A stretch of 64,000 nucleotides of DNA from Methylobacterium bullatum (GTDB lineage Bacteria; Pseudomonadota; Alphaproteobacteria; Rhizobiales; Beijerinckiaceae): the NCBI GenBank assembly GCA_902712845.1, contig LR743504.1:3694001-3758000 (forward strand), written 5' to 3'. The notes beneath the pieces were generated by a model that was not told where the DNA came from, did no database searches, and worked only from the letters and a program-made list of their open reading frames with translations. Made by a program: the position numbers and the translations under genes. Below are positions 11,689 through 33,732 of the stretch, piece by piece. Each line of letters starts with the position of its first letter. The first letter of the stretch is position 1.

Positions 11689-11837
11689 GGTCGTACGCGC
11701 GTCCCGCCCCTCCGCCCCCGCCGAAACGCCGCCGTCTGCTGTCTCACCCAAAACCAGAACCCCGGCGCGATCACCGCCCCCGAGGGCATCAGCCCGATTT
11801 CGTCGCGCAACGCAAATACGAGCGGACGCACCCCCGC

Positions 11838-14270
11838 TCACGGTGTGTCGGCCGAGGGCCGTACCCGCAATTCGGCTCGGGTCCTGGGACGCCCGCGCAG
11901 CTTGAGATCCTCCAGCTCCGCGCGGTCGCGCCCTGAATTGCGAAAGACCTGATCCTTGCCGGGGGCATACTGGGGTGGGCAGTGAATCTCCTCCGCGCCG
12001 TACCAGGCCGCCGCCCGTAGGGTGAAGCCCGGATCAGCGAGATGCGGACGCCCGAGGGCGACGATGTCCGCCCGGCCCGCCGCCAGGATGGTGTTGATCT
12101 GGTCCGGCGTCGTGATGTTGCCCACGCACATGGTCGCCGTGCCGGCTTCGTTGCGGATCCGCTCCGCGAAGGGTGTCTGGAACATCCGCCCGTAGAGGGG
12201 GCGCGAGGCGGCGACGGTCTGGCCGGTGGAGACGTCGACGAGGTCGACGCCGGCCTCGCGGAAGGCGTTCGCGATCGCCACCGAGTCCTCCGCTGTCAGG
12301 CCGCCCTCGGCCCAGTCGGTGGCCGAGAGGCGCACCGACATGGGCTTGTGGAAGGGCCACGCCGCCCGCATCGCCGCGAACACCGCAAGGGGAAAGCGCA
12401 GCCGGTTCTCGAGGCTGCCGCCATAGGCGTCCGTACGGTGGTTCGTGAGCGGCGAGAGGAAGCTCGCCAGCAGGTAGCCGTGGGCGCAGTGCAGTTCCAG
12501 CATATCGAAGCCGGCCCGCTCGGCGCGGTGCGTGGCGGAGACGAAATCGGCGGTCACCGCCTCCATGTCGGCGCGGTCCATCTCCCGCGGCACGGTGCTG
12601 TCCGGGAAATAGGGAAGGCTCGAGGCCGACATCACCTCCCAGCCGCCCGTGTCGAGGGGGCGGTCGATGCCCTCCCACATGAGCCTGGTCGCACCTTTTC
12701 GCCCGGCATGGCCGAGCTGGAGACAGAATTTCGTCGCCGCGTTCGCGTGGACGAATCCGACGATGCGGCTCCAGGCCGCTTCCTGTTCGTCCGTGTAGAG
12801 CCCGGCGCAGCCCGGCGTGATGCGAGCCTCGCGCGAGACGCAGGTCATCTCGGTGAACATCAGGCCCGGGCCACCCATGGCCCGCGCGCCGTAATGGACG
12901 AGGTGGAAGTCGTTCGGAACGCCGTCCTTCGCCGAGTACAGGCACATGGGCGACATCGCGACCCGGTTGGGGATCACCATCTCGCGCAGGCGGAGGGGCT
13001 GGAACATCGGCGCGGCGGGCCTGTCGAGGGAGACGTCGAAGCCCGCCCGCCGCACGCCTTCGGCGAAGGTGCGATCCATCGTGGCGACGAAGTCGGGCGC
13101 GCGCAGGCGCAGGTTGTCGTAGGTGATCGCCTTCGCGCGCGTCATCGCCCCGAAGGCGAACTGCACCGGCTCGAAATTCAGGTAGCGCGCCACGTGCTCG
13201 AACCAGACGAGAGAGACGTCGGCCGCGTGCTGAATCTTCTCGACCGCCTCGCGCCGCCCGCTCTCGAAGCGGCCGAGGGCCGCGGAAACCTCCGGCTCGG
13301 CCACCAGGGCCTCGTAAAGCGCGATGGCGTCCTCCATGGCGAGCTTGGTGCCGGAGCCGATGGAGAAATGCGCCGTGGCCTTGGCGTCGCCGAGCAGGAC
13401 CCGGTTGCCGCGCACCCAGCGTGCGTTGCGGATCATCGGGAATTGCCGCCAGATCGAGCGGTTGGTGAGCAGCGGATGCTCACCCAGGAAATCGGCGAAG
13501 ACGCGTTTCATGAAGGCGGCCGAGCCGGCCTCGTCGAGTCCGCCGAGCCCGGCGCGCGCGAACGTATCGGGGTCGGTCTCGAACACCCAGGTCGAGCGTC
13601 CGCGCTCATACTGATAGGCATGGGCGATGAACGGTCCCCACTCCGTCTCACGGAACAGGAACGTGAAGGCGTCCAGCGGCTTGGTCGACCCCATCCAGAC
13701 AAAGCGGTTCGGCCGCAGGTCCACCGTGGTGCCGAAATGCTCGGCGTGGCGCTGCCGGTAGACGCTGTTGATGCCGTCGGCCACGACGACGAGGTCATGA
13801 TCGTCGAACGCCTCCGCGTCGGCCTCCGCCTGGAAGACCATCTCGACGCCGAGGGCGAGGGCGCGCTCCTGCAGGATGCTCAGCAGGGTCGATCGCGCGC
13901 AGCCGCAGAAGCCGTTGCCGCCAATCCGGTGGACCTCGTCCTTCACGTGGATGGCGATGTCGTCCCAGTAGGCGAATTCCCGGGTAATCCGGGTGTAGCT
14001 TTCGGGATCGTAGCGCTCGAAAATGTCGAGGGTGGCGTCCGAGAACACCACTCCGAATCCGAAGGTGTCGTCGGGCCGATTGCGCTCGTAGACGGTGATC
14101 CGCGCGGCCGGGAACCGCTTCCGGACCAGGATGGACAAGTAGAGGCCTGCCGGACCCGCGCCCACGACGGCGATGCGCAGGGCCGCGGCCCTGCTCCGGC
14201 TCCCGCCCGCGGGCGCTTCGCCCGGCCGAGCTTCCGGACCGACGGCATTGACCTTGGTGACCGCACCCAT
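11838..14270 (-). CDS. Bifunctional aryl-CoA monooxygenase/reductase (2-aminobenzoyl-CoA or salicylyl-CoA type)
   Basis: An 810-residue two-domain flavoprotein. Residues 1 to ~410 form a salicylate-hydroxylase-like FAD monooxygenase (G-A-G-P-A-G at 37–42, [12 protein letters not shown] in the FAD region). From about 425 to the end is an old-yellow-enzyme domain starting M-F-Q-P-L-R-L-R and containing the L-H-C-A-H-G-Y-L-L loop. This fusion is the known architecture of 2-aminobenzoyl-CoA monooxygenase/reductase and salicylyl-CoA 5-hydroxylase. A GGAGG ribosome site precedes the ATG at 14270. It is divergent from an aryl-CoA ligase. The ligase and RidA neighbours favour an aminobenzoyl-CoA substrate, which remains an inference. 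Confidence 0.9.
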
Positions 14271-14316
14271 CGCATCCTCCCGGATCGTCCGGCCGACTCG
14301 CCGTTGGCCCGCAACA

Positions 14317-14372
14317 TGCTTGAGGCTTAAAGCACCTTGCGCGATCCGGCAAGGTGCTTTAAGCCTGAAGCA
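14317..14372. promoter_or_regulatory. Large palindrome, putative MarR operator pair
   Basis: A near-perfect inverted repeat with 23-base arms (14318–14340 and 14349–14371, one mismatch) and an 8-base centre sits between the divergent bifunctional oxygenase and ligase genes. Each arm contains the motif TGCTTTAAGCCTSAAGC, itself an imperfect palindrome and almost the same as motifs at 6551–6627. The position covers both promoters, fitting repression of both operons by one MarR protein released by an aryl-CoA ligand. Confidence 0.6.
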
Positions 14373-14426
14373 TTCCGGCGGACAACGTGGTCCGTCCGGT
14401 CCGATCCCGAACGCGAGGGCCTCACC

Positions 14427-16094
14427 GTGGATGCGCCGTCCGAACTCGCCAGGGGTATTGCTCCCCCCGTCCTCGATACCTTTCCCCGCGACCATCTTCC
14501 GCCGCGCGACACCTGGCCCGACCTGCTCGTCGCGCTGCCGGACCTGCGCTACCCCCGCCGCCTGAACTGCGTGACGCAGTTCCTGGACCGTTGGATCGCC
14601 GAGGGGCGTGGCCATGCCCTCTGCCTGATCGGCGAGCATGAATCGCTCACCTATCGCCAGCTCTTCGAGCGTGTGAACCGCATCGCAAACGTGCTGGTGA
14701 ACCGGCTCGGCCTCCGGCCCGGTAACCGCGTGCTCCTGCGCTCGGGCAACACGCCGATGATGGTGGCGACCTACCTCGCCGTGCTGAAAGCAGGGGGCAT
14801 CGTCGTCGCCACCATGCCGCTGCTGCGGGCACGGGAGATCGCCTATCCGCTGAACAAGGCGCAGATCGCCATTGCCCTGTGCGATCGTCGCCTCGCGGAT
14901 GACATGGAGGGTGCGCGCGCCCACGCGCCGGGCCTGGAACGGGTGGTCTACTGGGGCGGCGGGCCCAACTCCCTCGAGGCATTGATGAGCGCCGAGAGTC
15001 CGTCCTTCACCGCCGTCGACACCGGGGCAGACGAGGTCTGCCTCATCGCCTTCACATCCGGGACCACGGGGGAACCGAAGGGAGCGATGCACTTTCACCG
15101 CGACATGCTCGCGATCTGTGACACCTACGCCCGGCACGTGGTCCGGGCCGGGCCGGACGATCGCTTCATCGGTTCAGCGCCCTTCGCCTTCACCTTCGGC
15201 CTCGCCATCATCCTGTTCCCGATGCGGGTCGGCGCTTCCGCCGTCGTTCTGGAGAAGGCCGGTCCCGAGGATCTGGCCCTGGCGATCGGACGTGAACGGG
15301 CCACGATCTGCTTCACCGCGCCGACCGCTTATCGGGCCATGCTGGCCAAGCGCACGGCCTACGATCTCTCGTCCCTGCGCCGCTGCATTTCGGCGGGTGA
15401 ATCCCTCAACCGGGCGACCTTCGACGCCTGGAAGACCGCGACCGGCCTGACGCTCCTCGACGGCATCGGCGGCACCGAAATGCTGCACATCTATCTCGCT
15501 TCTCCGGAGGAAGAGGTACGCCCCGGCGCCACCGGCCGGCCGGTGCCAGGCTATGAGGCCCGCGTGGTCGACGACCAGGGTCACGAGGTGGCACCGGGGA
15601 CGATCGGGCGCCTCGCCGTGCGCGGTCCGACCGGCTGCCGCTACCTCGCCGATCCGCGCCAGACCACCTACGTCGTCGACGGCTGGAACTATCCGGGCGA
15701 CAGCTACCTCATGGATGAGGACGGCTACTTCTGGTATCAGGCCCGCTGCGACGACATGATCGTCGCCTCCGGCTACAACATCTCCGGGCCGGAAGTGGAG
15801 GCTGCCCTCCTGCGCCATCCAGACGTGCTCGAATGCGGCGTCGTCGGCGCCCCCGATCCCGAGCGCGGGACCATTGTCAAGGCTTACGTGGTCCTCGCCC
15901 CCGGCGCGACGGTCCACGCAAAGACGCTTCAAGATTTCGTCAAGGCCGAGATCGCGCCCTATAAGTATCCGCGCGCCATCGAGTACGTTGCCTGCCTGCC
16001 CAAGACGGCCTCCGGCAAGATCCAACGTTTCGAGCTGCGCCGGCTCGCCGCCGAGCAGGCCGCCGCCGGGGCGTCGGTCTCGGTGCCGGCATGA
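14427..16094 (+). CDS. Benzoate-CoA-ligase-family aryl-CoA ligase (2-aminobenzoate type)
   Basis: A 555-residue class I adenylate-forming enzyme that activates an aromatic acid to its CoA thioester through an acyl-AMP. The A3 P-loop [11 protein letters not shown] lies near residue 209. G-I-G-G-T-E-M-L follows near 348, and the C-terminal catalytic lysine is in K-T-A-S-G-K-I-Q near 526–533. A GTG start at 14427 matches family N-termini (…[10 protein letters not shown]). It heads a four-gene operon and overlaps the next gene by ATGA. The neighbouring fused oxygenase suggests anthranilate or salicylate as the acid. Confidence 0.9.
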
Positions 16095-16582
16095 ATGCGG
16101 CGGGCCGCGCGCCGGCGCCGGTGCTGGCGCATCAGGACGGTCTCTTCAGCGTGCCCCTGCGCGTGCGCTTCTCCCACTGCGACCCGGCCGGCATCGTGTA
16201 CTTCCCGCGCTGGTTCGACCTGCTGAACGGCGTCGTGGAAGACTGGTTCACGGACGGGCTCGGTCTCGATTACCGGGGCTTCCACGAGGAGCGGGGCATC
16301 GGCCTCGGCTACGGACACGCCGCGGCGGATTTCCTTAGGCCTGGCTTCTGGAACGACCGCCTCGATGTTTATCTCCGCGTCGCACGGATCGGCAGCGCCT
16401 CGCTGGAGCTCGCCCTGACGGCGTTTCGCGACGCGGAGCCCGTGCTCGCCGCCCGCCTCGTCATCGTCACCACCGCTCTCGCGGAGCGCCACGCGATCCC
16501 CCTTCCCACCGATCTGCGCGTGGCGGCCGAGCGCTACCGCGATGCCCAGCCACAGAACCACGCATCCGGAGACAGCCCGTGA
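16091..16582 (+). CDS. 4-hydroxybenzoyl-CoA thioesterase-family hotdog protein
   Basis: A 163-residue hotdog protein with the 4HBT active-site helix H-C-D31-P-A-G-I-V-Y-F-P-R-W-F, where the aspartate is the catalytic residue of the Pseudomonas-type enzyme. It would hydrolyse an aryl- or alicyclic-CoA thioester to free acid and CoA. The start overlaps the ligase stop (ATGA) and its own stop overlaps the RidA start (GTGA), so the three are translationally coupled. It may release a ring-hydroxylated acid or a stalled CoA adduct. Confidence 0.9.
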   Translation: MNAAGRAPAPVLAHQDGLFSVPLRVRFSHCDPAGIVYFPRWFDLLNGVVEDWFTDGLGLDYRGFHEERGIGLGYGHAAADFLRPGFWNDRLDVYLRVARIGSASLELALTAFRDAEPVLAARLVIVTTALAERHAIPLPTDLRVAAERYRDAQPQNHASGDSP

Positions 16583-17001
16583 GCACCATGATCGAGACCC
16601 CGCGCCGGAGCGCCGCCTTCCTGCAGCCCACCGGCTGGCCTGTGCCGCGTGGATACGCCAACGGCATGGCCGCCTCCGGCCGGCTCGTCGTCACCGGCGG
16701 CGTCGTGGGCTGGGACGAGACCGAGCGCTTCCCCGATGGGCTCGTCGCCCAGGTCGATCAGGCCCTCCGAAACATCCGGGCGATCCTGGCGGAGGCCGGC
16801 GCCGAGCCGCACCACCTCGTGCGGCTGACGTGGTACGTCACTGATATGGACGCCTATCTCGAAGCCCGGCGCGACCTTGGCGGGATCTACCGTGACGTGT
16901 TCGGCCAGCATTTCCCCGCCATGGCCCTGGTACAGGTGGTACGCCTCGTCGAGCCGCCGGCCCTGGTCGAGATCGAGGCCACCGCCGTGATTCCGGAGTA
17001 A
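16579..17001 (+). CDS. RidA/YjgF-family protein
   Basis: A 140-residue RidA-superfamily protein with V-T-G-G-V-V-G-W-D near the N-terminus and R-L-T-W-Y-V-T-D-M-D-A-Y in the core. It ends in V-E-I-E-A-T-A-V-I. RidA proteins hydrolyse enamines and imines, releasing ammonia. This suits the known aminobenzoyl-CoA route, where the fused oxygenase yields a 2-amino-5-oxocyclohexene carboxyl-CoA that must lose its amino group. The arginine usual for classical RidA is not in its standard context, so it may belong to a Rid subfamily. Translationally coupled to the thioesterase. Confidence 0.85.
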   Translation: MSTMIETPRRSAAFLQPTGWPVPRGYANGMAASGRLVVTGGVVGWDETERFPDGLVAQVDQALRNIRAILAEAGAEPHHLVRLTWYVTDMDAYLEARRDLGGIYRDVFGQHFPAMALVQVVRLVEPPALVEIEATAVIPE

Positions 17002-17005
17002 GCCG

Positions 17006-17848
17006 ATGACGCCGGCCGAACGCGACAGGCTGGATCGCGAATACAACGCACGACTGAGCGTTCCGAGCTTCGAGGTAGAGTACGCGCGCTACGTTGCGGC
17101 GAGCGCCGAGGCCGTCGGTCGCTTGGAGCGGGTGGCGGGCCTCGTCTACGATCCGGCCTCGGGCGAGACCCTCGATCTCTACCCGGCGGGTCCGGGAAGC
17201 CCGCTCTTCCTATGGATTCACGGCGGGTATTGGCGCGCTTTGTCGAAGGACGACAACGCTTTTCCGGCCCTTGGCCTCGTGCCGAACGGTGTCTCGGTGG
17301 CGGTGATGAATTATTCGCTCGCCCCCGCCGTCGACCTCGACGAGATCGTGCGCCAGACCCGCGCGGCGCTGGCCTGGCTCCACGCCAACGCCGCCACCTA
17401 CGACATCTCGGGCCGCCGCATCCATGTCGGCGGCTCCTCGGCCGGCGGCCATCTCGGCGGCATGCTGCTGGCGGGTGGCTGGCACCACGCCTTCGGCGTT
17501 CCGGAGGATACGATCGCGTCCGCGCTGCTTCTCTCGGGCCTGATGGACCTCGAGCCCCTCATCGACACCCACATCAACGCGTGGATGAAGCTCGACACGG
17601 TGTCCGCCCGCCGCAATAGCCCCCTGCATCGGATCCCCCAGCGGTCGCAGGCGCATCTGCTGGCCTCGGTCGGCGGATTGGAAAGCGACGCCTTCAAGGC
17701 ACAGACCGGGGATTTCGCCCAGGCCTGGACCGAGGCCGGCCATGCCGGACACCAGATCGGGATGCCCGGCTACCATCACTTCGACATCGCCTTGAGCCTG
17801 CGCGAGCCGGCCGGTCCGCTCGCCCGGGCCGTGGCGGCACAGTGCTGA
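17006..17848 (+). CDS. Alpha/beta hydrolase, kynurenine formamidase (arylformamidase)-like
   Basis: A 280-residue alpha/beta hydrolase with H-G-G-Y-W (72–76) and G-G-S-S-A-G-G (nucleophile S145). Both are characteristic of kynurenine-formamidase-like and esterase/lipase hydrolases. The acid lies in L-E-S-D-A-F near residue 228 and the histidine in G-Y-H-H-F-D near 258. Four bases after the RidA gene. Arylformamidases release formate from N-formylkynurenine or N-formylanthranilate, which would supply anthranilate to the neighbouring ligase. This link is an inference from context. Confidence 0.8.
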   Translation: MTPAERDRLDREYNARLSVPSFEVEYARYVAASAEAVGRLERVAGLVYDPASGETLDLYPAGPGSPLFLWIHGGYWRALSKDDNAFPALGLVPNGVSVAVMNYSLAPAVDLDEIVRQTRAALAWLHANAATYDISGRRIHVGGSSAGGHLGGMLLAGGWHHAFGVPEDTIASALLLSGLMDLEPLIDTHINAWMKLDTVSARRNSPLHRIPQRSQAHLLASVGGLESDAFKAQTGDFAQAWTEAGHAGHQIGMPGYHHFDIALSLREPAGPLARAVAAQC

Positions 17849-18254
17849 CACGACCGCCGGCCGATCGCCGCGGCGGCGGCGCGTTCGAATGGTCTTTCCG
17901 GCGCAGCGAACCCACCGTCGTTCGTAACCCATGAAACCAGAAACCCAGCCCGACGAAGGCCGGGTTTCCCGTGTCCGGCCAGGATGGTGGAGAAGTCGAG
18001 TCTGGAAATGGGCAATGCTCAGGGCGTCAGCAAACCGCCCGTTCATTGTGCAGGCTCACAATTTTCTTCTCGGGAACTCCCCCGTCTCGACGGGATTGCT
18101 TCGTCGAACGGACAAATATTGATGCTTGCAAACTATTGCCGCGCGATCTGGATAGGTTGGGCGTGTTCAGGATAGCTCGGCGCACCGTCTGACGTGAGAT
18201 TTTCTCCTTGAAAGCACGCCCCGTCAGGGACGTCCGTGGAGGAAGGTTCAAACC
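17849..18254. other. Intergenic region with hairpin and monooxygenase promoter
   Basis: A hairpin at 17940–17968 (GAAACCC…GGGTTTC) lies about 90 bases after the formamidase-like gene. It has no following T-run, so it is only a weak terminator candidate. The AT-rich part around 18050–18180 should contain the promoter of the FMO gene, with the AraC-like repeat site at 18141–18175. A GAGGAAGG ribosome-binding stretch precedes the start at 18255. No further gene is seen. Confidence 0.5.
18141..18175 (+). promoter_or_regulatory. AraC-type direct-repeat site upstream of FMO gene
   Basis: The sequence GCGCGATCTGGATAGGTTGG begins here and a second GGATAG follows exactly 20 bases after the first GGATA (18150 and 18170). 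The same arrangement occurs at 21058–21092. Two direct half-sites about two helical turns apart is typical of AraC-family operators. The site ends 80 bases before the FMO start codon. Confidence 0.55.
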
Positions 18255-19790
18255 ATGGTCACGCAACGCACCGTCTGCGTCATCGGCTCGGGCATTAGCG
18301 GGCTCGCCGCCGCCAAGGCGTTCCAAGAGCGCGGCCACCGCGTGACGGTGCTGGAGCGCGGCCCCGAACTGGGGGGCGTGTGGGAGCCGTCACGCTCCTA
18401 TCCGGACGTGAAGACCCAGACCCCCAAGGGGATCTACGCCTTCAGCCAGATGTCGATGCCGGCCGATTATCCCGAATGGCCGTCCGGCGGCCAGGTCTTC
18501 GCCTACCTGCGGGCCTATGCCGAACGCTTCGGCCTGCTCTCCCTGATCCGCTTCGGCCAATCGGTGACCGCCCTGACGAAGCGGACGGATCGCGGCTGGG
18601 ACGTGGCGACGACGGGCGCCGACGGCGTGGTGCGGACGGAGCGTTACGACTTCGTCGCCCTCTGTACCGGGCAGTTCAGCCAGAAGAACGCGCCGGTCCA
18701 TCCCGGCGCCGACGCGTTCCGGGCGGCGGGAGGGACGATCCTGCATTCGAGCGAGCACACGGACGCCGAATCGGTGCGAGGCAAGCGGGTCATCGTACTC
18801 GGGTTCTCGAAATCGGCGACCGACGTGGCCGTGAGCGCGGTCAAGCACGGTGCCGAGGCGGTGACGCTCGTCTTCTTGGAGCCGGCCTGGAAGATCCCGT
18901 ACTTCTTCGGCGGCCTCGTGAATTTCAAGAACATCCTCTATTGCCGCGCGGCAGAATCGATGTTCCTGCCCTTCAATGCCGGCCCCGTACGGCGCTTCGT
19001 TCAGAAGCTCGCCACCCCGCTGATCTGGGCGAACTGGCGCGCCCTGGAGGCGCTCCTGAAGGTTCAGTTCAAGCTCGGCAAGAACGGCCTCCTGCCCAGG
19101 ACGCGGATCGAGGACGACATCCATTGCAACCTCGCGGTCGAGACGCCGGGCTTCTACAAGCTCGTCACGGACGGCAAGATCACGGCGATCCGGGGCACCA
19201 TCACCGCCTATGACGGGGCGAACGCCGTGCTCACCGGGGGGCAGCGCGTTCCGGCCGACCTCGTGGTCATGGCCACCGGCTGGCGCCAGGAGATTCCGAT
19301 CCTGAATGACTCCGACCGTGCCAAGCTCGTGGCCGAGGACGGACAGTACAAGCTCTACCGGATGATCGTGAACCCGGATCTGGCGGATCTCGGTTTCGTC
19401 GGCTTCAACTCCAGCTTCGCGACGAACCTCTCGGCCGAACTCGGGGCCAACTGGCTCGTGCGGTTCATGGACGGACAGCTCGCGCGGCAGCCGAGTCGAG
19501 CGCAGATGGAGACGGGGATCGCGCGGTCGCTGGCGTGGCGGCGCACCGAACGTCTTTCCGCCAGGACCTATGGTGGCCTCTGCATCGCCCCTTACCACAA
19601 TCACCACTTCTCCGGGCTGCTCGGCGACATCGGCGTCCGAACTCGCGAGGCGAACCCGATCACCGCCGCGTTCGCGCCCTTGCGGCCTCCCGTCTACGCG
19701 AAGCTGCTCGCGCGGGCTCCGGCCTATCGGGCGACTCCCGCCGCCAAGCCGGTCGACCTCACGGTCGTCGAGGCGTCGCACGCCGCCTGA
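18255..19790 (+). CDS. Flavin-containing monooxygenase (FMO/BVMO-like)
   Basis: A 511-residue flavoprotein. The FAD-binding G-S-G-I-S-G is at 11–16, followed by L-E-R-G-P-E-L-G-G-V-W and V-A-L-C-T-G-Q. The NADPH-binding segment reads V-L-G-F-S-K-S-A-T-D, where the usual second glycine is replaced by serine, and M-A-T-G-W appears near the C-terminal half. Family members oxygenate soft nucleophiles or ketones with NADPH and O2. The convergent AraC gene downstream and the shared direct-repeat site suggest co-regulation with the cupin/transporter unit at 21–23 kb. Confidence 0.85.
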   Translation: MVTQRTVCVIGSGISGLAAAKAFQERGHRVTVLERGPELGGVWEPSRSYPDVKTQTPKGIYAFSQMSMPADYPEWPSGGQVFAYLRAYAERFGLLSLIRFGQSVTALTKRTDRGWDVATTGADGVVRTERYDFVALCTGQFSQKNAPVHPGADAFRAAGGTILHSSEHTDAESVRGKRVIVLGFSKSATDVAVSAVKHGAEAVTLVFLEPAWKIPYFFGGLVNFKNILYCRAAESMFLPFNAGPVRRFVQKLATPLIWANWRALEALLKVQFKLGKNGLLPRTRIEDDIHCNLAVETPGFYKLVTDGKITAIRGTITAYDGANAVLTGGQRVPADLVVMATGWRQEIPILNDSDRAKLVAEDGQYKLYRMIVNPDLADLGFVGFNSSFATNLSAELGANWLVRFMDGQLARQPSRAQMETGIARSLAWRRTERLSARTYGGLCIAPYHNHHFSGLLGDIGVRTREANPITAAFAPLRPPVYAKLLARAPAYRATPAAKPVDLTVVEASHAA

Positions 19791-21768: not shown

Positions 21769-22785
21769 ATGACGAAGCAAATGATAGAGTTGCCGAAACG
21801 GATTCGGGCCCGCACGAAGAATCGTGCCGCCGGCCGGGCACGCTTCGTGCGGCACGCGGCACTCTCCCTGGCGACGCTCGCCGGCCTGTCGGGACCGGCG
21901 ACGGCCTACGACCTGCCGAACCTGAATCTCGGCTCCACGAGCTTCCTCGACGGCGCGCCGCCAGCGGGGCCCGGCTGGTACCCGACCCAGTACCTGCAAG
22001 TCTATTCGGCCGGGCGCCTGACCGACAATCGCGGCCGCAGCCTTGGCCTTCCGCGGCAGGACATCAGCGTGTTCGCGAGCCTGACGCAGCTCCTCTACAT
22101 CTCGCCCGTCAAGATCGGCTCCGGCGCCCTCGGCCTCGACATCATCGTCCCGGCGATCATCTCCTCGAGTGCGGATGACGGCCTGGGCGGCGCGGCCCTG
22201 AAGGCTCAGCAGGGGATCGGCGACCTTCTGATCGGACCGTTCATCCAGTTCGATCCGATCATGGGGGAAAAAGGGCCGTTGTTCTTCGGTCGCATCGAGG
22301 CGCAGATGATCCTGCCCACCGGCCGTTACGACGTGACCGCGGCGGTCAATCCCGGATCGAACTTCTTCTCGTTCAATCCCTACGTCGCCGGCACCCTGTT
22401 CCTGACGCCGGACTGGACCGTCTCGGCTCGTTTCCACTACCTTTGGAACGCCAGCAACGACCGCCCGAATGTCGGGTTCGGTCCGGCCGTCCTCTCGACC
22501 CAGGCCGGACAGGCACTGCATGCGAACTTCGCCAGCGAAGTCAGCGTGACGAAGGAGTTGAAAATCGGCGTCAACGGTTATTGGCTGCAGCAGATAAGCG
22601 ACACGCTCGCGAACGGCGTCGCCGTTCCCGGCCGGCGCGAGCGCGTCTTCGCCCTCGGTCCGGGAGCATTGTGGGCGCTGAACAAGGATAACTTCCTGTT
22701 TTTCAATGCTTATCAAGAGTTCGGCGCGCAGAACCGCCCGGAAGGCCAGCGCTATACCATGCGCTGGGTCGGACACTTCAATTAG
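21769..22785 (+). CDS. Outer-membrane transporter, phenol MetA-degradation type (copy 2)
   Basis: A 338-residue exported protein with signal peptide (…AALSLATLAGLSGPATA before YDLP) and a predicted all-beta body ending V-G-H-F-N. It is clearly paralogous to the product at 8992–9996 throughout its length, including N-P-Y-V-A-G-T-L-F-L-T-P and the V-P-G-R-R-E-R-V-F segments. Proposed to let hydrophobic or aromatic substrates across the outer membrane. It follows the cupin gene and an AraC-type promoter. Confidence 0.8.
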   Translation: MTKQMIELPKRIRARTKNRAAGRARFVRHAALSLATLAGLSGPATAYDLPNLNLGSTSFLDGAPPAGPGWYPTQYLQVYSAGRLTDNRGRSLGLPRQDISVFASLTQLLYISPVKIGSGALGLDIIVPAIISSSADDGLGGAALKAQQGIGDLLIGPFIQFDPIMGEKGPLFFGRIEAQMILPTGRYDVTAAVNPGSNFFSFNPYVAGTLFLTPDWTVSARFHYLWNASNDRPNVGFGPAVLSTQAGQALHANFASEVSVTKELKIGVNGYWLQQISDTLANGVAVPGRRERVFALGPGALWALNKDNFLFFNAYQEFGAQNRPEGQRYTMRWVGHFN

Positions 22786-23763: not shown

Positions 23764-24603
23764 GGGCCTGTTGTCACTTGAGCCAGTCGAGCGTTGCAGC
23801 GAGGCAGAGGACGCCGGTGAAGCTGACAGCGGTCTTCTCGTCGCGTGTGGCGAGGGCGCGCCACTCTTTGAGGCGCACCCATCGTCGCTCGACGATGTTG
23901 CGGTTGTTGTCGACCCAATCTGGGCAGGCGAGCTGCTCTTCGTTGCGTTTGGTCGGGAGCGCGGGGCGTACGCCGGTGGTCGAGATGTGCTCGCGGAAGC
24001 CGTGGCTGGAACAGCCGCGGTCGCCCACGGCCCACTCGGGCACGGCCCTGCAACGGGGCGAGGAGCGGAATGGCGTGAGGCCGTTCGTGGGCCTGCCCCG
24101 GGGCGATGCGGACGGCGACAGCACGGCCTTTCCCGTCGGCGATCACGCAGGCCTTGGTGCCATAGCTGCCACGAGAGCGACCAAGTGCTTCACGAGCATC
24201 TCGCTCTGCCGCAGATCCCCCCTTTTTGCCGCGCCCGCCGCCTTCTGGTGAGCCCACACGTCGCTGCCGTCGAGGAAGACCATGCCCAGCGCGATGCCGC
24301 GCTCCCACACCCCGGCCCGTGCCCAGCGAATGACCCGAAGGACCGCGTCAGCGAACATCTGTGCCGCCCGCCACCAGGAGCCTGACTCATCAGGGATGGC
24401 GCGCCATTTCGCACCGTTCTGATGTCGCCAGAGGATCGCCGGGATTGTGCGCCGAATCTCCTTGGGCGGTGTCTTCGCCTTCGGGCGACAGGCCTCAATC
24501 AACGATTCCAACTCACCCCACTGTGCGTCCGACAGCATCGCGTCTCTCACTCGAAACCGAGAAAACGCCAAATATCGCAATCCGTTCAGACGACGACAGG
24601 CCC
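23764..24603 (-). mobile_element. IS5-family insertion sequence, about 840 bp
   Basis: Imperfect terminal inverted repeats GGGCCTGTTGTC (23764) and GACGACAGGCCC (ending 24603) match at 11 of 12 bases and enclose a transposase reading frame on the minus strand. The length fits the IS427-type branch of IS5. No clear target duplication was seen. Confidence 0.7.
23774..24538 (-). pseudogene. IS5-family transposase, frameshifted
   Basis: The N-terminal part (24538 to about 24200) starts M-L-S-D-A-Q-W-G-E-L-E and carries R-R-T-I-P-A-I-L-W-R-H-Q-N-G-A-K-W-R and L-G-M-V-F-L-D-G-S. The middle (G-S-Y-G-T-K-A-C-V-I-A-D-G) is in a second frame. The end (V-G-D-R-G-C-S-S-H-G-F … N-N-R-N-I-V-E-R-R-W, with the DDE glutamate) is in a third, stopping at 23774. 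One shift could be the programmed frameshift known in this group. Two shifts plus an apparent short deletion before residue 80 indicate a non-functional gene. Confidence 0.75.
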
Positions 24604-24723
24604 CAGTGGATAGTGCTATGCTCTGCAGGGAGCGCACTCACCTCTTTCGGATTTTTTCCGCCAAGGCAACGCTGCCTGCCAGTACATGCGGTTGACGGAT
24701 TTGCGAAAACCCAACGCCAAGGA

Positions 24724-24861: not shown

Positions 24862-25749
24862 CTACGGAAAAATCTTTGCAATCCGCAACTGCAAAAATGT
24901 CGACTGCTTCGTTCCATTTTCGACAATGAAGTCTTGACCAATCATCGCTTGGATTTGAAGGGTCGGTTCGGGAAAGTAGGCGACTGTGAGACGGCCATAT
25001 TGGGTCGCTTGTGAATTTCGCAGCGACGTCTGCTCGAAGGATTGGTTGCCACCGATCTTACCGCCGAGGCCACCGCCTACTTCCAAGGCAGGATTGATCT
25101 TGTATCGCAGATAGGCCTGCAACTCGAATTGAGGGTCCTGTGAGAGCCGACCGATACCGCCGAGGTTGTAGCGTGTGTTGTCCGAGTAAAAGGCGACATC
25201 ACCGATCAGGTCGAGTGACCAAACCGGATTGAAGTGCTTAATGTAAGCGGCTTGAATGACACCCTGCCAGCGATTGGTTCCAAAATTCAGCGCCTTGTTC
25301 TCGTCATACGTCCCCGTTGGGGCGATGAGATAAGGTGTGATGGCGAAGACATCGTTGAACTCGGTATTGAGTTTGAACTTGAAGGCGGTGGCCATGATGA
25401 TATCGCCCACGCCGCCCGGCGATCCAAGGGGCGACAGCACGCCGCCGGTCGAGATCGCCCCAACCGGGAGGAGGAATTGCGGGTCGACGGTCACGCCCGG
25501 GGCGATCTCATAAACATGCAGCAGGCGGATGATACCAACATTCGTCTCGAGCTTCGCATCTGATGTCGTTTTGGCACCCCGTGCGTAGGCTTCGTCTCCA
25601 CGGCCATGCTGATAATACAGCAATCCGATTGTCGCCCCGGAGGGGAATTGTTCGTAATCTCCGGGATTCACTTCAAGCGCTTCGGCACTAAAGCTCATGC
25701 ATGTGGATATAGCAGCCGAAATCAGGCTCAGGCCAAATCTTGATTTCAT
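24862..25749 (-). CDS. Outer-membrane transporter, phenol MetA-degradation type (copy 3)
   Basis: A 295-residue exported protein with signal peptide (SRFGLSLISAAISTCMSFSAEA before LEVNPGDY) and a body of alternating strands ending in an aromatic-proximal K-I-F-P. It has the family's opening P-G-D-Y-E-Q-F-P-S-G-A-T and I-T-P-Y-L-I-A-P-T-G-T-Y-D. It is more distant from copies 1 and 2 than they are from each other and is lower in GC. It sits next to, and on the same strand as, an AraC regulator gene upstream. Confidence 0.75.
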   Translation of the reverse strand: MKSRFGLSLISAAISTCMSFSAEALEVNPGDYEQFPSGATIGLLYYQHGRGDEAYARGAKTTSDAKLETNVGIIRLLHVYEIAPGVTVDPQFLLPVGAISTGGVLSPLGSPGGVGDIIMATAFKFKLNTEFNDVFAITPYLIAPTGTYDENKALNFGTNRWQGVIQAAYIKHFNPVWSLDLIGDVAFYSDNTRYNLGGIGRLSQDPQFELQAYLRYKINPALEVGGGLGGKIGGNQSFEQTSLRNSQATQYGRLTVAYFPEPTLQIQAMIGQDFIVENGTKQSTFLQLRIAKIFP

Positions 25750-27080: not shown

Positions 27081-27287
27081 GGCCCCCTCTTTCGCGTCAG
27101 CACTTGGAATGACTCCAACCGATGCACATCCTGCGCCATGGGGGCTGAGATCTGGAAAGGCCGCCCGTTCCGGCGGGCCGAGGACCGCAGTCGGGGAATA
27201 CGAAGGCGCAGGTCACGATAAAGCCCGCTGCCTCGTTTGTTGGCAGGTTCTCCTCCTGTTGAAGAATTACGCAACCGGAGAGTGGAT

Positions 27288-29414
27288 ATGGCTCGCGAAG
27301 TCGTCATCGGCGCATGCCCGCACGATTGCCCCGATACCTGCTCGATCCTCACGACGGTGGAGGATGGCAAGGCGATCGCGGTGCGGGGTAACCCGGATCA
27401 CCCCTTCACGAAGGGGCGCCTGTGCGTAAAGGTCAACGATTACCAGAACCGGGTCTACAGCGACCAGCGCGTGCTCTACCCGATGAAGCGCGTCGGCCCG
27501 AAGGGAAGCGGCCAGTTCGCGCGGATCGGCTGGGACGAGGCGCTGGACGAGATCGCCGGCCGCTGGAAGGCCATCATCGCCGAGAGTGGCGCCAAGGCGA
27601 TCCTGCCCTACAGCTATCTGGGCACCCAGGGCATCATCAACGGACTCAACGTCGGCGATCCCCTCTTCAACAAGCTCGGCGCCAGCGTCTGCGAGCGCAC
27701 CTTCTGCGATTCGGGTGCCTGTACCGCCTACATGATGACGATCGGCCATACGCCGGGCGTCGATCCGGAGAGCTTCGTCCATTCGAAGTACATCATCCTG
27801 TGGGCCTGCAACACGCTCAGCACCAACTCGCACCACTGGCCGTTCATCGAGCAGGCCAAGCGGAACGGTGCCAAGCTCGTGGTGATCGATCCCGTCCGCA
27901 CCCGCACGGCGCGGCTGGCCGACTGGCACATCCCGATTCAGCCCGGCACCGATGGCGCCCTGGCGATGGCGATGATGCACATCATCATCAAGGAAGGACT
28001 GACGGACCGCGATTACATCGACAAGCACACTCTGGGTTTCGACGAGCTCGCCGTGCGGTGCGAGGCTTACACGCCGGAATTCGCCTCTGCCGAGACAGGT
28101 ATCCCGGTCGAGGACATCCTGAAGCTCACCCGTGAATACGCCACGACACCGGCAGCGGTGGTGCGGATCGGCGTGGCGGTGGAGCGCCATGCGGGTGGCG
28201 GCCAGACCGTCCGTGCGATCGCTTGTCTTCCGGCGCTGATCGGCGCCTGGAAACATGTCGGCGGCGGCCTGCTCCAATTGCCGATCTGGGCCTTCCCGGT
28301 GAATTGGGCCGGTCTGATGCGGCCGGATCTCCAGCCGGAATCGATGCGGGTCATCAATTCCTGGCGCCTCGGCCCGGCTCTCACCGGGGAGATGCCCCTC
28401 GACCCGCCGATCCGCGCGCTGTTCGTCTACAACGCAAACCCGATGGCGATGGTCTCGCAGCAGCAGACGATCGAACGCGGTCTCGCACGCGAAGACCTGT
28501 TCACGGTGGTGAGCGAGCATTTCCTCACCGACACCGCGCGTTACGCCGACATCGTGCTGCCGGCCACGACCCAGCTCGAACAGGCGGACATCATGTTCTC
28601 CTGGGGGCATCTCTACCTGTCCTACAACAACCCGGCCATCGCCCCCCTCGGCGAGGCGGTGCCGAACACCGAGTTGTTCCGCCGGCTGGCCAAGGCCATG
28701 GACATCGACGATCCGTTCTTCTTCCGCTCGGACGACGCGATGATCGCGGATTCGATGGACTGGTCGAGCCCGGTGCTGGCCGGCATCACCCTCGATGAGT
28801 TGAAACAGAAGGGCTACATGCGCCTGACCATGGACGCGGCCGATTCCTGGGCGCCCCATCGCGACGGCAACTTCCCGACGGCCTCCGGCAAGTGCGAGTT
28901 CAAGTCGAGCCTGGCCGAAGGCGGCAACTTCGTGGTGCCGTTGTTCCGCCAGGGCTACGGCGGCGATCAGGCGGGTGAGCCGGTCGATTCGCTGCCGCAC
29001 TATCTGCCACCGAACGAGAGCCGCCGCACCGCACCGGCGCTGGCCGAGCGCTTCCCCCTCAGCCTGATCTCGCCGAAGAGCCACGCGTTCATGAACTCGA
29101 ACTACGGCAACCTTCCGGCCCAGGTGGCGCAGGCGGGCGAGCAGCAGGCGGTGCTGCTGCACCCGGAGGATGCCGGGCCGCGCGGCATCGTGGCCGGAAC
29201 GCCGATCCGCGTGTTCAACGAAAGGGGCGCCTTCGAGGCCTTCGCCACCCTCTCGGCCGACGTGATGCGCGGAGTCGTCGTCGCCCCGGCGGGCTTCTGG
29301 CAGCGCTCCAACCAGCGCGGCCCCACCGTCCACGCCCTGACACCCCCGGCCTTCGCCGATCTCGGCCGCGCCCCGACCTTCTCGGACATGCTCGTGGACG
29401 TGGCCGCCGCCTGA
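27288..29414 (+). CDS. Molybdopterin oxidoreductase, single-subunit, [4Fe-4S]
   Basis: A 708-residue cytoplasmic enzyme of the DMSO-reductase/formate-dehydrogenase superfamily with bis-molybdopterin cofactor. An N-terminal [4Fe-4S] motif is visible (C10-x3-C14-x3-C18-x27-C46). The molybdopterin domain follows, with C135-E-R-T-F-C140-D-S-G-A-C145 near the metal site, and a C-terminal molydopterin-dinucleotide-binding domain from about 590. There is no Tat signal. GGAG precedes the ATG at 27288. It is followed by ferredoxin, ferredoxin reductase and moaA genes, suggesting electrons reach it from NADPH. The substrate and the Mo ligand residue cannot be read from sequence. Confidence 0.85.
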   Translation: MAREVVIGACPHDCPDTCSILTTVEDGKAIAVRGNPDHPFTKGRLCVKVNDYQNRVYSDQRVLYPMKRVGPKGSGQFARIGWDEALDEIAGRWKAIIAESGAKAILPYSYLGTQGIINGLNVGDPLFNKLGASVCERTFCDSGACTAYMMTIGHTPGVDPESFVHSKYIILWACNTLSTNSHHWPFIEQAKRNGAKLVVIDPVRTRTARLADWHIPIQPGTDGALAMAMMHIIIKEGLTDRDYIDKHTLGFDELAVRCEAYTPEFASAETGIPVEDILKLTREYATTPAAVVRIGVAVERHAGGGQTVRAIACLPALIGAWKHVGGGLLQLPIWAFPVNWAGLMRPDLQPESMRVINSWRLGPALTGEMPLDPPIRALFVYNANPMAMVSQQQTIERGLAREDLFTVVSEHFLTDTARYADIVLPATTQLEQADIMFSWGHLYLSYNNPAIAPLGEAVPNTELFRRLAKAMDIDDPFFFRSDDAMIADSMDWSSPVLAGITLDELKQKGYMRLTMDAADSWAPHRDGNFPTASGKCEFKSSLAEGGNFVVPLFRQGYGGDQAGEPVDSLPHYLPPNESRRTAPALAERFPLSLISPKSHAFMNSNYGNLPAQVAQAGEQQAVLLHPEDAGPRGIVAGTPIRVFNERGAFEAFATLSADVMRGVVVAPAGFWQRSNQRGPTVHALTPPAFADLGRAPTFSDMLVDVAAA

Positions 29415-29464
29415 CGGCCCTCCATACCATACGCGGTCGATCGGTCCGGTCCGGCGCGAGCACG

Positions 29465-29565
29465 GGTCCCCCTCCTCGAAGGAGAGGGACAGGGTGAGGT
29501 GAGTGACCTTTTCGGATGGTCCACGCCCTTCACTCCAACCCTCTCCCAAACGGGAGGGGGTGCCT
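29465..29565. repeat. REP-like inverted repeat
   Basis: Two roughly 38-base blocks rich in CTCTCC/GGAGAGG (about 29465–29505 and 29528–29565) can pair imperfectly across a 22-base centre. A similar kind of GC-rich element lies at 52599–52708. It occupies the gap between the molybdopterin enzyme and ferredoxin genes and could attenuate or stabilise the operon transcript. Confidence 0.5.
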
Positions 29566-29634
29566 GTTGCGACCGTGCCGGCCGAGCCGGGAACGTATCA
29601 CCCTTCCGTTTGCACCAGACTTGTCGAGGCCTGC

Positions 29635-29940
29635 ATGGCTTATGTCGTCACCGATGCGTGTCGCGGGTGTCGCTACACCGAATGCGTCACCGTCTGTCCC
29701 GTCGAATGCTTCCATCTCGACGAGCAGATGACCTACATCGACCCCGAGAACTGCATCGATTGCGGCGGCTGCGCGCCGATCTGCCCGGTCGGCGCGATCC
29801 ACCCGTCCTGGCAGATGCCGGCGGGCAAGGCCGAATGGGTCGAGATCAATCGCCTGCGGGCGGCCGAGACCCCGGTGATCGCCGCCAGGATCCCGCCGCT
29901 GCCCGGCGCCGACGAGCAGGCGAGGCGGCTGGCCTCATGA
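29635..29940 (+). CDS. 7Fe ferredoxin ([3Fe-4S][4Fe-4S])
   Basis: A 101-residue ferredoxin. Its cysteines C9, C12, C17, C21, C25, C40, C43, C46 and C50 have the same spacing as Azotobacter ferredoxin I (C8, C11, C16, C20, C24, C39, C42, C45, C49). There, C8/C16/C49 hold a [3Fe-4S] cluster and C20/C39/C42/C45 a [4Fe-4S] cluster. The ATG at 29635 gives the M-A-Y-V-V-T-D-A-C start typical of this type. The stop overlaps the reductase start (ATGA), so the two products are made together. Proposed electron carrier between the reductase and the molybdopterin enzyme. Confidence 0.9.
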   Translation: MAYVVTDACRGCRYTECVTVCPVECFHLDEQMTYIDPENCIDCGGCAPICPVGAIHPSWQMPAGKAEWVEINRLRAAETPVIAARIPPLPGADEQARRLAS

Positions 29941-31256
29941 GCGCGCTTCCTCGCATCGCGGTCGTCGGGAGCGGTCCGGCCGGGTTCTACGCGACCGAGG
30001 CGCTCCTGCGCTCCGGCGTGCCGGTCGCGGTGGACCTGTTCGAGCGCCTGCCCGCACCGTTCGGCCTCGTCCGGTTCGGCGTCGCGCCGGACCACCCGAA
30101 GTTGAAGCAGGTGACCACGGTGTTCGACCGGATCGCCGGCTTGCCCGGCTTCCGCTTCGTCGGCGGGGTCGAAGTCGGGACCGAGGTGAGCGTCGCCGAA
30201 ATGAGCGCCTGCTATCATGCCGTGATCCTCGCCAACGGCGCCTCCCTCGACCGGCGGATGGGCATTCCGGGCGAGGATCTGGCTGGCAGCCATCAGGCGG
30301 GGGCGTTCATCGGCTGGTACAACGGCCATCCCGACGCGGCCGGCCTGTCCTTCGACCTGTCGATGGAGCGGGCGGTGGTGATCGGGCACGGCAACGTCGC
30401 CCTCGATGTCGCCCGCATCCTCCTCAAGACCCCGGACGAGCTGCGCCATACCGACATCGCCGCCCACGCGCTGGAGGCCCTGGCCGAGAGCCGGATCCGG
30501 GAGGTTCAGATCGTCGGGCGCGGCGGGGTGGAGCGCGCGCGCTTCTCCCCGAAGGAACTCGGCGAGTTCGGCGCGCTCGCCGATTGCGTCACCGGGCTTG
30601 ATCCGGACGACCTGCCGGAGGGCGTTCCGGAACCGCCGATGGACGCCGGCGCGGAGGCACGCGCCAACGCCGCCGTCCTGCGCGGCTTCGCCGAGGCCGA
30701 AGGCGCGACCGCCAAGCGGCGGCGCTGCCTGATCCGCTTCGGCTTGGAGCCCGTCCGCCTGGCGGGGGAGGTCCGGGTGGACGGCCTGCATCTGCGCCGG
30801 ACCGGCTCGGACCGGACCATCGCCATCGCTTGCGGGCTCGTTATCTCCAGCATCGGGCGCCGGACCGCGCCGATGGCGGGAATCCCCTACGACGCTCGGG
30901 CAGGGGTGCACGCCAATCTCGGCGGCCGGATCGTCACGGACGGCGTGCCGGTGCCCGGCCTCTACACCTGTGGCTGGAGTAAGCGCGGCCCCCACGGCAC
31001 GATCGGGACGAACCGTGCCTGCGGCGTGGAGACGGCGGCGGCCGTCCTCGCCGACCTCGCGACCCTCCCGGTTCCTATCGGGAACGCCGACGCCCTGGTG
31101 GCCGGCCTCGCGGAGCGGGCTGGGCACAGCATCGACTACGCCGCCTGGCGCCGGATCGAAGCCGCCGAAACCGCCCGCGGGCAAGCGGCCGGAAAACCCC
31201 GCGAAAAGTTCGTGACGCGCGCCGAGATGCTCGCGGTCGCCAGCGAGGCCGCCTGA
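29937..31256 (+). CDS. Ferredoxin–NADP reductase, adrenodoxin-reductase (FprB) type
   Basis: A 439-residue FAD enzyme: G-S-G-P-A-G at 11–16, [16 protein letters not shown], the NADP-binding [13 protein letters not shown], and the C-terminal [14 protein letters not shown] that caps the flavin. This architecture transfers electrons between NADPH and small iron-sulfur proteins. It is translationally coupled to the 7Fe ferredoxin and ends one base before moaA. It most simply supplies NADPH electrons to the ferredoxin and then the molybdopterin enzyme. Confidence 0.9.
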
Positions 31257-31257
31257 G

Positions 31258-32277
31258 ATGATGGCACAGAATGCGGCCTCGACCTGCGGGCTCATCGACG
31301 GCTTCGGACGGCGCGTGACCTACCTGCGCCTCTCGGTCACCGACCGGTGCGACCTGCGCTGTGTTTACTGCATGTCGGAAGACATGACCTTTCGCTCTCG
31401 ACGGGACATCCTCAGCCTGGACGAATTGGCTCGGCTGGCGCGTCTGTTCATTGCCCGTGGCATCGACAAGCTGCGCATTACCGGGGGGGAGCCGCTGGTG
31501 CGGCCCGGCATCCTCGGCCTGTTCGAGGAACTCTCCCAGCTGCTCCGGGACGGCTCGCTGCGCGAACTGACCCTTACGACGAACGGAACGCAGCTCGCCC
31601 GCTTCGCCGAGGATCTGGCCCGGACGGGGGTGCGCCGGATCAACGTCTCGCTCGACACCCTCGACCCGGAGCGCTTCCGGATGCTGACCCGTGGCGGTTC
31701 CCTCGCCAAGGTGCTGGACGGGATCGCCGCGGCCCGCGCGGCGGGTCTCGCGGTCAAGCTCAACGCGGTCGCATTGCGGGACGGGACGGAGAGCGAGATC
31801 CACGATCTCATCGCCTTCGCCCACGACCGGAGCATGACGCTGAGCCTCATCGAGACCATGCCGCTCGGCGATGTCGGCGTCGACCGCCTCGATCAGTACC
31901 TGCCCCTGGACGCCTTGCGCCGGCGGATCGAGGAGCGCTGGACGCTCATCGACGTCCCCATGCGAAGCGGCGGCCCGGCCCGCTACGCGCGTGTCGCCGA
32001 GACGGGCGGCCTGATCGGCTTCATCACCCCGCACACCCACAATTTCTGCGCGGATTGCAACCGGGTGCGGATCACGGCCTCGGGGACGCTGCACACCTGC
32101 CTGGGCCAGGACGACGCGACGGACCTGCGGACCCTCCTGCGAGCCGGCGGCACGGACGACGATCTCGTGAGAATCATCGACGTGGCCCTCGGCCGGAAGC
32201 CCAAAGGCCACGATTTCGTTCTGAGCCGTGGCGCAGCCACCCAACTCGCGAGAAGGATGTCCGAAACCGGGGGGTGA
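31258..32277 (+). CDS. moaA: GTP 3',8-cyclase (MoaA), molybdenum cofactor synthesis
   Basis: A 339-residue radical-SAM enzyme catalysing the first step of molybdopterin synthesis (GTP to 3',8-cyclo-7,8-dihydro-GTP). The SAM cluster motif is C31-x3-C35-x2-C38 within [13 protein letters not shown]. The second cluster motif is C-A-D-C-N-R-V-R…H-T-C, and the protein ends in the Gly-Gly needed for catalysis. It starts one base after the reductase stop. No other mo cofactor gene is present, so this may be a pathway-dedicated extra copy, though the genome outside cannot be seen. Confidence 0.93.
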
Positions 32278-32822: not shown

Positions 32823-33513
32823 TGAGGGTCCCCCGGATTTTGGTCCGGCCGGAAGGTGAGCTTCCGGGTCTCATTCGGCGGCCTGCATGGCTGCCGCCAA
32901 GGCAAATTCCTGGGGCGGTCGCCACCCCAGGGCTGTGTGAGGACGGCTCTCGTTGTCCTGCCGCCGCCACGTCTCGATCTTGCTCCTCGCGTCGGCCAAC
33001 GACAAGAACCGGTTCGCGTTTAGGCACTCGTCGCGCAGGGGGTCGTTGAACGACTCGACCAGCGCATTGTCGGTCGGCTTGCCAGGGCGCGAGAAGTCCA
33101 ACGTGACCCCGTTCTCGTAGGCCCAGCGGTCGAGCGCTTTCGAGACGAACTCGCTACGCGGTCCTTCGGTTCAGACCCGTTATCGACCTGAATCGCGCTC
33201 GGTACTCCGCGCAGCAGTGCCAAGCGTCCGACGACAGCCACGACCTGCTCGCCTTTGATGCCCTGGTCGACCTCGATCGCCAGAGCCTCGCGCGTGAACG
33301 CATCGACGACCGTCAGGGCCCGCAGCCGGCGGCCATCGAACAGCGCGTCGGAGACGAAGTCCATCGACCACCGCTCGTTCGGCCGGAGCGCGGCAGGCTG
33401 ACGCTCCCGGTGTGCCCCGCTGACGTGCCGGCGCGCCCGCTTGAGCCGCAGGCTCAGCCCCTCGTCCCGGTAGAGACGGTGAACCCTCTTATGGTTCACT
33501 CGCCAACCTTCCC
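32823..33513 (-). pseudogene. IS3-family orfB transposase fragment, frameshifted
   Basis: Minus-strand frames give L-L-R-R-E-G-W-R-V-N-H-K-R-V-H-R-L-Y-R-D-E-G-L-S-L-R and R-W-S-M-D-F-V-S-D-A-L-F-D-G-R-R-L, up to I-Q-V-D-N-G-S-E. A second frame continues D-F-S-R-P-G-K-P-T-D-N-A and ends W-R-P-P-Q-E-F. The break near 33160–33180 looks like an insertion of about 20 bases that shifts the frame. It is an IS3 OrfB lacking its N-terminus. The left end begins TGAGGGTCCCCC at 32823. Confidence 0.75.
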
Positions 33514-33732
33514 GGCGCAGCAGGCCACCTCTTCGGTCGTGAGCACGGTCGAGCGCGGCGTCTTCGGTCCCACCGCCGCGTTGTGCACGAAGGCACGCTT
33601 GCGCCACTTCGCGACCGTCTTGGGGTTCAGTCCATGCTGTGCGGCAAGATCTTCGAGCGAAGCTTTCGATCGCTGTAGCGCTGCTCCGACCGCGTGCCTG
33701 GTCGTGGCGCAGCCGTGAAGAACCTGTCCCAT
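33514..33732 (-). pseudogene. IS481-family transposase N-terminal fragment
   Basis: The frame from 33732 reads M-G-Q-V-L-H-G-C-A-T-T-R-H-A-V, then L-N-P-K-T-V-A-K-W-R-K-R and G-P-K-T-P-R-S-T-V-L, the N-terminal helix-turn-helix of IS481 transposases. After about 72 residues the sequence switches abruptly into IS3 OrfB. The catalytic domain is absent. The IS481 outer end probably lies near 33760–33800, and no gene is visible up to 33912. Confidence 0.75.

Follow-up and report, generated by a model that had tools for sequence, protein, structure and literature searches.

The window analysed here is a 64,000 nt stretch of the Methylobacterium bullatum genome (assembly GCA_902712845.1, contig LR743504.1, positions 3,694,001–3,758,000). 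It contains a compact row of five genes built around a molybdenum or tungsten (Mo/W) enzyme, with a ferredoxin, a ferredoxin reductase, MoaA and an AraC-family regulator (Table 1). A preliminary description of this DNA had named the same row, and all of its genes, including the divergent araC and the moaA gene one base past the reductase, are present. Its span, however, began at 27081, which marks the end of araC and not the start codon of the Mo gene. The module is real and unusual. Among the readings considered, the best supported is that the ferredoxin and its reductase supply electrons to the Mo enzyme, and such wiring would be readable from gene order in many bacteria.

Table 1. Genes and candidate regulatory sites of the row (window coordinates)
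Feature	Position	Strand	Remarks
AraC-family regulator, 294 aa	26196–27080	-	HTH_18 (Pfam); divergent from Mo gene
Upstream half-site GCA-N9-CCA	27124–27138	+	Shared by 11 of the 12 intergenic regions; without a chance estimate
Candidate tandem AraC-type operator, two GCA-N6-GRNWA units	27187–27221	+	21-bp period; 66 bp 5' of Mo ATG
One-subunit Mo/W bis-MGD enzyme, 708 aa	27288–29414	+	ATG at 27288; motif C10/C14/C18/C46, ligand Cys140
7Fe-type ferredoxin, 101 aa	29635–29940	+	Fer4-type Pfam domains
FprA/adrenodoxin-type ferredoxin-NAD(P) reductase, 439 aa	29937–31256	+	Pyr_redox_2 (Pfam); ATGA overlap with ferredoxin stop
moaA (GTP 3',8-cyclase), 339 aa	31258–32277	+	Radical_SAM, Mob_synth_C; starts 1 base past reductase stop
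bis-MGD, bis-molybdopterin guanine dinucleotide

Three Pfam domains (Molybdop_Fe4S4, Molybdopterin and Molydop_binding) score over their cut-offs in one chain of the Mo protein. Together with the fold matches, they place it in the dimethyl sulfoxide (DMSO) reductase, or MopB, superfamily. A Tat signal was not seen at the N-terminus (MAREVVIGACPHDC) on inspection by eye, no signal-peptide program having been run. In an alignment of 56 relatives, residues C10, C14, C18, C46, K48 and C140 never vary. Forty-seven of the 56 have D, G or E directly after the ligand Cys140, a position where His is outside the five commonest residues. The closest match among those listed is a protein of Methylobacterium sp. 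E-045 with 97% identity. The window's genome has seven PF00384 matches, the window Mo protein included. The others are two formate dehydrogenase (FDH)-like alpha subunits (L002, L004), a NapA/NasA-like protein (L003), two YdeP-like proteins (L006, L007) and a sixth protein, L001, which is weakly similar to the references and is taken as NuoG-like.

The preliminary description held the ligand region to be unlike that of formate dehydrogenase and DMSO reductase, and a comparison of residues agrees. FdhF, the cytosolic FDH of the MopB superfamily known from E. coli and from the hydrogen-dependent CO2 reductase (HDCR), has a bis-MGD fold, a [4Fe-4S] motif, a Cys (or Sec) ligand and a length comparable to those of the window enzyme. 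The hallmark His that follows the ligand Cys/Sec of FDH is not a feature of the window family (56 aligned relatives). The RGxxNVQG loop with the catalytic Arg is absent from the window protein and present in FdhF, YdeP, L002, L004, L006 and L007. The TIGR01701 model of the FdhF/YdeP family gives 52.7 bits versus a cut-off of 582. This value also ruled out Fdh4A, an identity first suggested by methylotroph relatives; according to PMC10308882, Fdh4A groups with FdhF/YdeP proteins. NapA/NasA-like references have a Met after the ligand Cys in place of the D, G or E of the window family. The NasC model gives 187 bits versus a cut-off of 1100, and the NAPA model is likewise far under its cut-off. 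DmsA, BisC and TorA have a Ser ligand where the window family carries Cys; the best NCBIfam match is dmsA_ynfE, at 279 bits far under its cut-off of 778. Acetylene hydratase (Pelobacter acetylenicus, 2e7z) is, like the window enzyme, a single cytosolic subunit with a Cys ligand. However, the residue presumed to be its catalytic Asp, after the second cluster Cys, is aligned to Pro15, which is invariant in the 56 relatives, and membership in this family was rejected on that account.

A profile search gives a near tie between acetylene hydratase (295.3 bits), HDCR FdhF (294.9 bits) and formate dehydrogenase 7bkb (292.8 bits). A tree of 41 rows was made from 29 of the 56 aligned relatives and 12 references, a small set that omits L001. 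In this tree 25 family rows group together (100/99), and the addition of rows at 33–39% identity gives a group of 29 (100/99). With midpoint rooting the group of 29 adjoins DmsA/BisC/TorA (96/90), the nearest references; acetylene hydratase is outside on a long branch, and the window family falls outside the FdhF branch. Tight clustering with a known enzyme, which the preliminary description had named as fatal to its proposal, is not seen against the 12 reference rows. A structure model built from 56 sequences (pLDDT 92.5) superseded an earlier one from 14 sequences (pLDDT 77.2). Its best Foldseek matches by E-value are Methylorubrum FDH1, MtsZ and DMSO reductase. The highest TM-score among the 50 structures listed is that of acetylene hydratase (0.82/0.80), with approximately 24% identity in the fold alignment. 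Tree, profile and fold matches do not name a substrate. The superfamily is well known, but the branch to which the Mo enzyme belongs is uncharacterised. The sister group at 33–39% identity (L078, 11996–13972 on the minus strand, and L096–L100) is common across the family to which the window's genome belongs, and in L078 such a copy lies beside a 77% copy and an Oxidored_FMN protein.

The ferredoxin aligns with FdI chains over residues 2–94 without gaps, and its cysteines have the exact FdI spacing previously claimed for them. By sequence it is of the 7Fe type, though not FdxA proper by the FdxA_Protbact model (NCBIfam), which gives 107.7 bits versus a cut-off of 135. The best PDB matches of the reductase are FprA (1lqt) and adrenodoxin reductase (1cjc), with an E value of 1.5e-90 over residues 7–434. 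The gene had been described as an FprB-type reductase coupled by ATGA; the coupling is present, but the type is that of FprA and adrenodoxin reductase. MoaA scores 354 bits with TIGR02666 (NCBIfam), above the cut-off of 284. It is the genome's second, one other protein above the cut-off being located at G000:C1:47979 (G000 is the window's genome).

Conservation of the row was followed in the best 80 of at least 576 relatives, 69 of which hold at least 1.5 kb downstream of the Mo gene; counts of neighbouring genes rest on tblastn. A 7Fe-type ferredoxin gene is directly 3' of the Mo gene at 22 of the 69 loci, with an FprA-type reductase in 17 and a TrxB-like reductase in 5. Arranged by Mo protein identity, the ferredoxin is present at 13/13 loci at 76–97%, 6/26 at 59–75% and 3/30 at 50–58%. 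The corresponding counts for the ferredoxin plus an FprA-type reductase are 13/13 at 76% or above, 1/26 and 3/30. Retention of the pair at all 13 close loci implies a gene order beyond chance. The araC gene is divergent at all 12 close loci that hold upstream sequence. A moaA gene follows at five of the 13 close loci, and at the other eight no moaA was found in the available stretch. The shared row includes neither a partner subunit for the Mo enzyme nor a transporter. In a 96% relative (L139, 3109–4107) a SBP_bac_11 (ModA-like) protein is found after the reductase instead of moaA.

Five actinobacterial loci (Streptomyces, Pseudonocardia, Aeromicrobium, Nocardioides and Williamsia) keep the ferredoxin and have a TrxB-like reductase in the reductase slot. 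Four of these five reductases were read and none has a CxxC motif, which sets these four apart from ordinary thioredoxin reductases. In an Acidimicrobiia locus (L145), the place of the usual pair is taken by a Rieske ferredoxin and a reductase whose domains are Pyr_redox_2 and Reductase_C. Pairwise BLAST among the three reductase kinds gives a best E value of 0.002, and all share the Pyr_redox_2 fold. The slot beside the Mo gene accommodates three reductase kinds and two ferredoxin kinds, which is not accounted for by chance neighbourhood. That reductases of different classes replace one another at a single position is an argument for an NAD(P)H–ferredoxin electron supply to the Mo enzyme. Pseudonocardia asaccharolytica (L120, L123) has two copies of the family, one with the ferredoxin/TrxB-like pair and moeA; next after the second copy comes a luciferase-like monooxygenase.

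At the limit applied, 18 plasmid records contain the Mo gene, and in 9 its identity is 80–90%. The complete five-gene row is found on pAtS4e and on a plasmid of A. tumefaciens, and in a Thioclava plasmid row glp occupies the place of moaA. A copy in Bradyrhizobium CB82 (67%) has no annotated cassette genes in a gene table that is incomplete. Among the four plasmid regions inspected, flanks differ between the pAtS4e, A. tumefaciens and Thioclava rows. In the window, IS4/5-type and integrase-core transposase frames (23774–24637 and 32871–33607) flank the AraC–Mo–moaA region on both sides. The differing plasmid flanks and these transposase-type frames are the reason why the row appears to move as a unit. 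A 63% homologue in L116 and L117 lies between a Rieske ferredoxin on its upstream side and a PhyH-type dioxygenase on its downstream side; one of the two records is labelled Chloroflexota, and as its gene row is nearly identical to that of the alphaproteobacterial metagenome-assembled genome, it may be mis-binned.

Twelve araC–Mo intergenic regions were compared (the window, 9 of the 12 close loci and 2 plasmids). All 12 have a tandem repeat with a 21-bp period, 60–79 bp 5' of the Mo start, in which 12–14 of 14 fixed positions are kept. A relaxed operator pattern is matched exactly in seven of them. The pattern gives 147 versus a mean of 102.5 (sd 2.6) in simple base shuffles, a result that overstates its strength because the pattern was drawn from the same related sequences. 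Over 10 genomes the relaxed pattern has 12 matches and a reversed control pattern has three. Six of the 12 are cassettes (the window, L103, L105, L107, L109 and L113), one precedes an AraC paralogue (L201), and the other five, of which L200, inside a flagellin-like frame, was the sole one inspected, are taken as chance matches. Four cassettes, in L104, L106, L111 and L114, are without an exact match to the pattern. The AraC paralogue is from E-045, where it follows the only other match in the same orientation (distance 119 versus 106 bp). It is 48% identical to the window AraC and represents a partly independent check on the operator. At this locus (L201, 1426–2470) the paralogue keeps the operator, and an IS4/5-type transposase is located where the Mo gene would be expected. 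Beyond these, the search in the 10 genomes brought up no regulon member from which a substrate could be named. Binding of AraC to the tandem repeat is suggested by these sequence properties.

The row may encode a soluble, inducible Mo (or W) reductase with its own NAD(P)H/ferredoxin supply, a proposal considered reasonably probable. NAD(P)H would reduce the FprA-type flavoprotein, which would reduce the 7Fe ferredoxin, which in turn would pass electrons to the [4Fe-4S] cluster of the large subunit. From the cluster, electrons would reach the Cys140-ligated bis-MGD metal, presumably Mo rather than W, and then a small substrate that needs no dedicated transporter. AraC and its ligand would bind the tandem operator and turn the row on, and the additional moaA would raise cofactor supply. 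There are partial precedents. The assimilatory nitrate reductases NarB and NasA are soluble Mo enzymes fed by ferredoxin, as is proposed for the window enzyme. Mycobacterium P450-type FdxA/FprA pairs belong to the same two redox protein families, but there they lie beside a P450 and in the window beside a Mo enzyme. The self-contained Mo–ferredoxin–reductase–moaA row under a local AraC, as first described, is borne out and is conserved and mobile; the soluble NAD(P)H–ferredoxin feed proposed with it stands as the best reading.

Several points weigh against an electron supply of this kind. At 47 of the 69 homologous loci, all at 75% identity or less, there is no 7Fe-type ferredoxin directly downstream, and in G377 (L078; 77%, beyond the 69-locus set) AraC and the Mo gene are present and the pair is missing. 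The enzyme may consequently use other donors or need none. The preliminary description would have given way if the ferredoxin and reductase genes were absent beside orthologues, and such absence is seen in part: at these 47 loci and in G377, and at none of the 13 close loci. The preference of the reductase for NADPH over NADH is unsure from its sequence: GRGG is found where the two-Arg motif GRRG presumably binds the 2'-phosphate, the second Arg being Gly, as it is in 10 of the 22 other reductases aligned; the remaining 12 have the Arg. The direction of electron flow is itself inferred, since FdxA/FprA-like redox pairs usually deliver electrons. Finally, a distant clade at 51–57% identity is tied to the one-carbon (C1) marker Fae, so an oxidative role could be considered.

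This last point was examined by a search for the Mo protein (E ≤ 1e-200) in 249 genomes of the order and 337 of the class, and by a search for Fae. The two genome draws are taken as identical, as numbers and handles agree, and the order count omits the copies of G000, G288 and G377. In the order, Fae is present in 25/32 genomes with the 51–57% protein vs 28/217 others (Fisher 8e-14) and, counted by genus, in 8/11 vs 17/101 (2e-4); in the class it is present in 8/9 vs 10/324 (1e-10). All three Fisher values ignore relatedness. Five of the seven Fae-negative order genomes with the protein are from one genus, and the clade is mostly without ferredoxin genes.

These counts favour a reverse flow, where the Mo/W enzyme would oxidise a C1 or other small compound and electrons would pass via ferredoxin and reductase to NAD(P)+. 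Gene neighbourhoods in two compact genomes also point in this direction: in L092 the Mo gene is near fdhD, mobA, moaA and a PBP_like_2 binding protein gene, and in L175 FDH-type beta/gamma subunits are encoded divergently from it, while moaA, mobA and moeA lie downstream. FdhD is present in 23 of 24 genomes examined. However, five of seven compact alphaproteobacterial genomes also hold a 918–931 aa MopB protein and G542 has a fragment (by frame length), thus FdhD may serve other FDHs in most compact genomes, and it was not used as proof of formate chemistry. G505 (80% complete) has FdhD, yet besides the family protein just one MopB protein, of 701 aa. The lack of a 918–931 aa protein there speaks for a link between FdhD and the family. 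Reverse flow is nevertheless unlikely given the missing FDH His and RGxxNVQG loop, and Fae is found in none of the three class genomes with 65% copies.

A lower probability is assigned to a non-redox hydratase resembling acetylene hydratase, with the ferredoxin pair merely keeping metal and cluster reduced in aerobic cells. Acetylene hydratase tops both the profile search and the TM-scores and must be reduced to be active, and an aerobic acetylenotroph of the genus Bradyrhizobium has reportedly been found. But its profile score is a tie with that of HDCR FdhF, its catalytic Asp aligns with an invariant Pro, and the methylotroph distribution does not suggest acetylene. It is very improbable that the pair serves MoaA, a radical S-adenosylmethionine enzyme that needs a reductant, or general metabolism and is beside the Mo gene incidentally; most distant homologues are without the pair, but it is retained at the eight close loci where no moaA was found, and different reductase classes fill the same slot.

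Elsewhere in the window, positions 11230–19790 hold an aromatic acyl-CoA type operon that encodes an AMP-binding CoA ligase, a 4HBT_2 thioesterase, a RidA-like protein, a hydrolase, an FMO-like protein and a fusion of a monooxygenase-like frame with an Oxidored_FMN domain. It presumably resembles 2-aminobenzoyl-CoA breakdown. Two Phenol_MetA_deg outer-membrane-type proteins are encoded at 21769–22785 and 24862–25749, the latter within a stretch that has 84% DNA identity to sequence beside the L103 cassette. The operon and the Phenol_MetA_deg genes were dropped as a substrate clue, being outside all three annotated plasmid rows.

Enzymes of the MopB superfamily generally rely on Fe-S, haem or quinone partners of their own. 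No description of the present cassette was recognised in the literature searched, mostly at the level of titles and abstract openings. It is possible, as a tentative proposal, that the family represents a MopB catalytic class without a characterised member. Such a class would be Cys-ligated, lack the signatures of FDH, Nap, DMSO reductase and acetylene hydratase, be fed aerobically by a soluble NAD(P)H–ferredoxin pair (in three pairings) and spread as an AraC-switched cassette with a cofactor gene; its distant clade would be an unassigned Mo/W step linked to C1 metabolism and retained even by assemblies of 0.8–1.5 Mb. A cytosolic MopB enzyme that took its electrons from an unspecialised, interchangeable ferredoxin pair would, as a Mo/W catalyst, be easy to transplant. 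Because reductases of different classes occupy the same genomic slot, three donor pairs are at hand for a direct in vitro test of the electron route. The link between the distant clade and Fae also points to an unassigned Mo/W protein in methylotrophs, which have been studied intensively.

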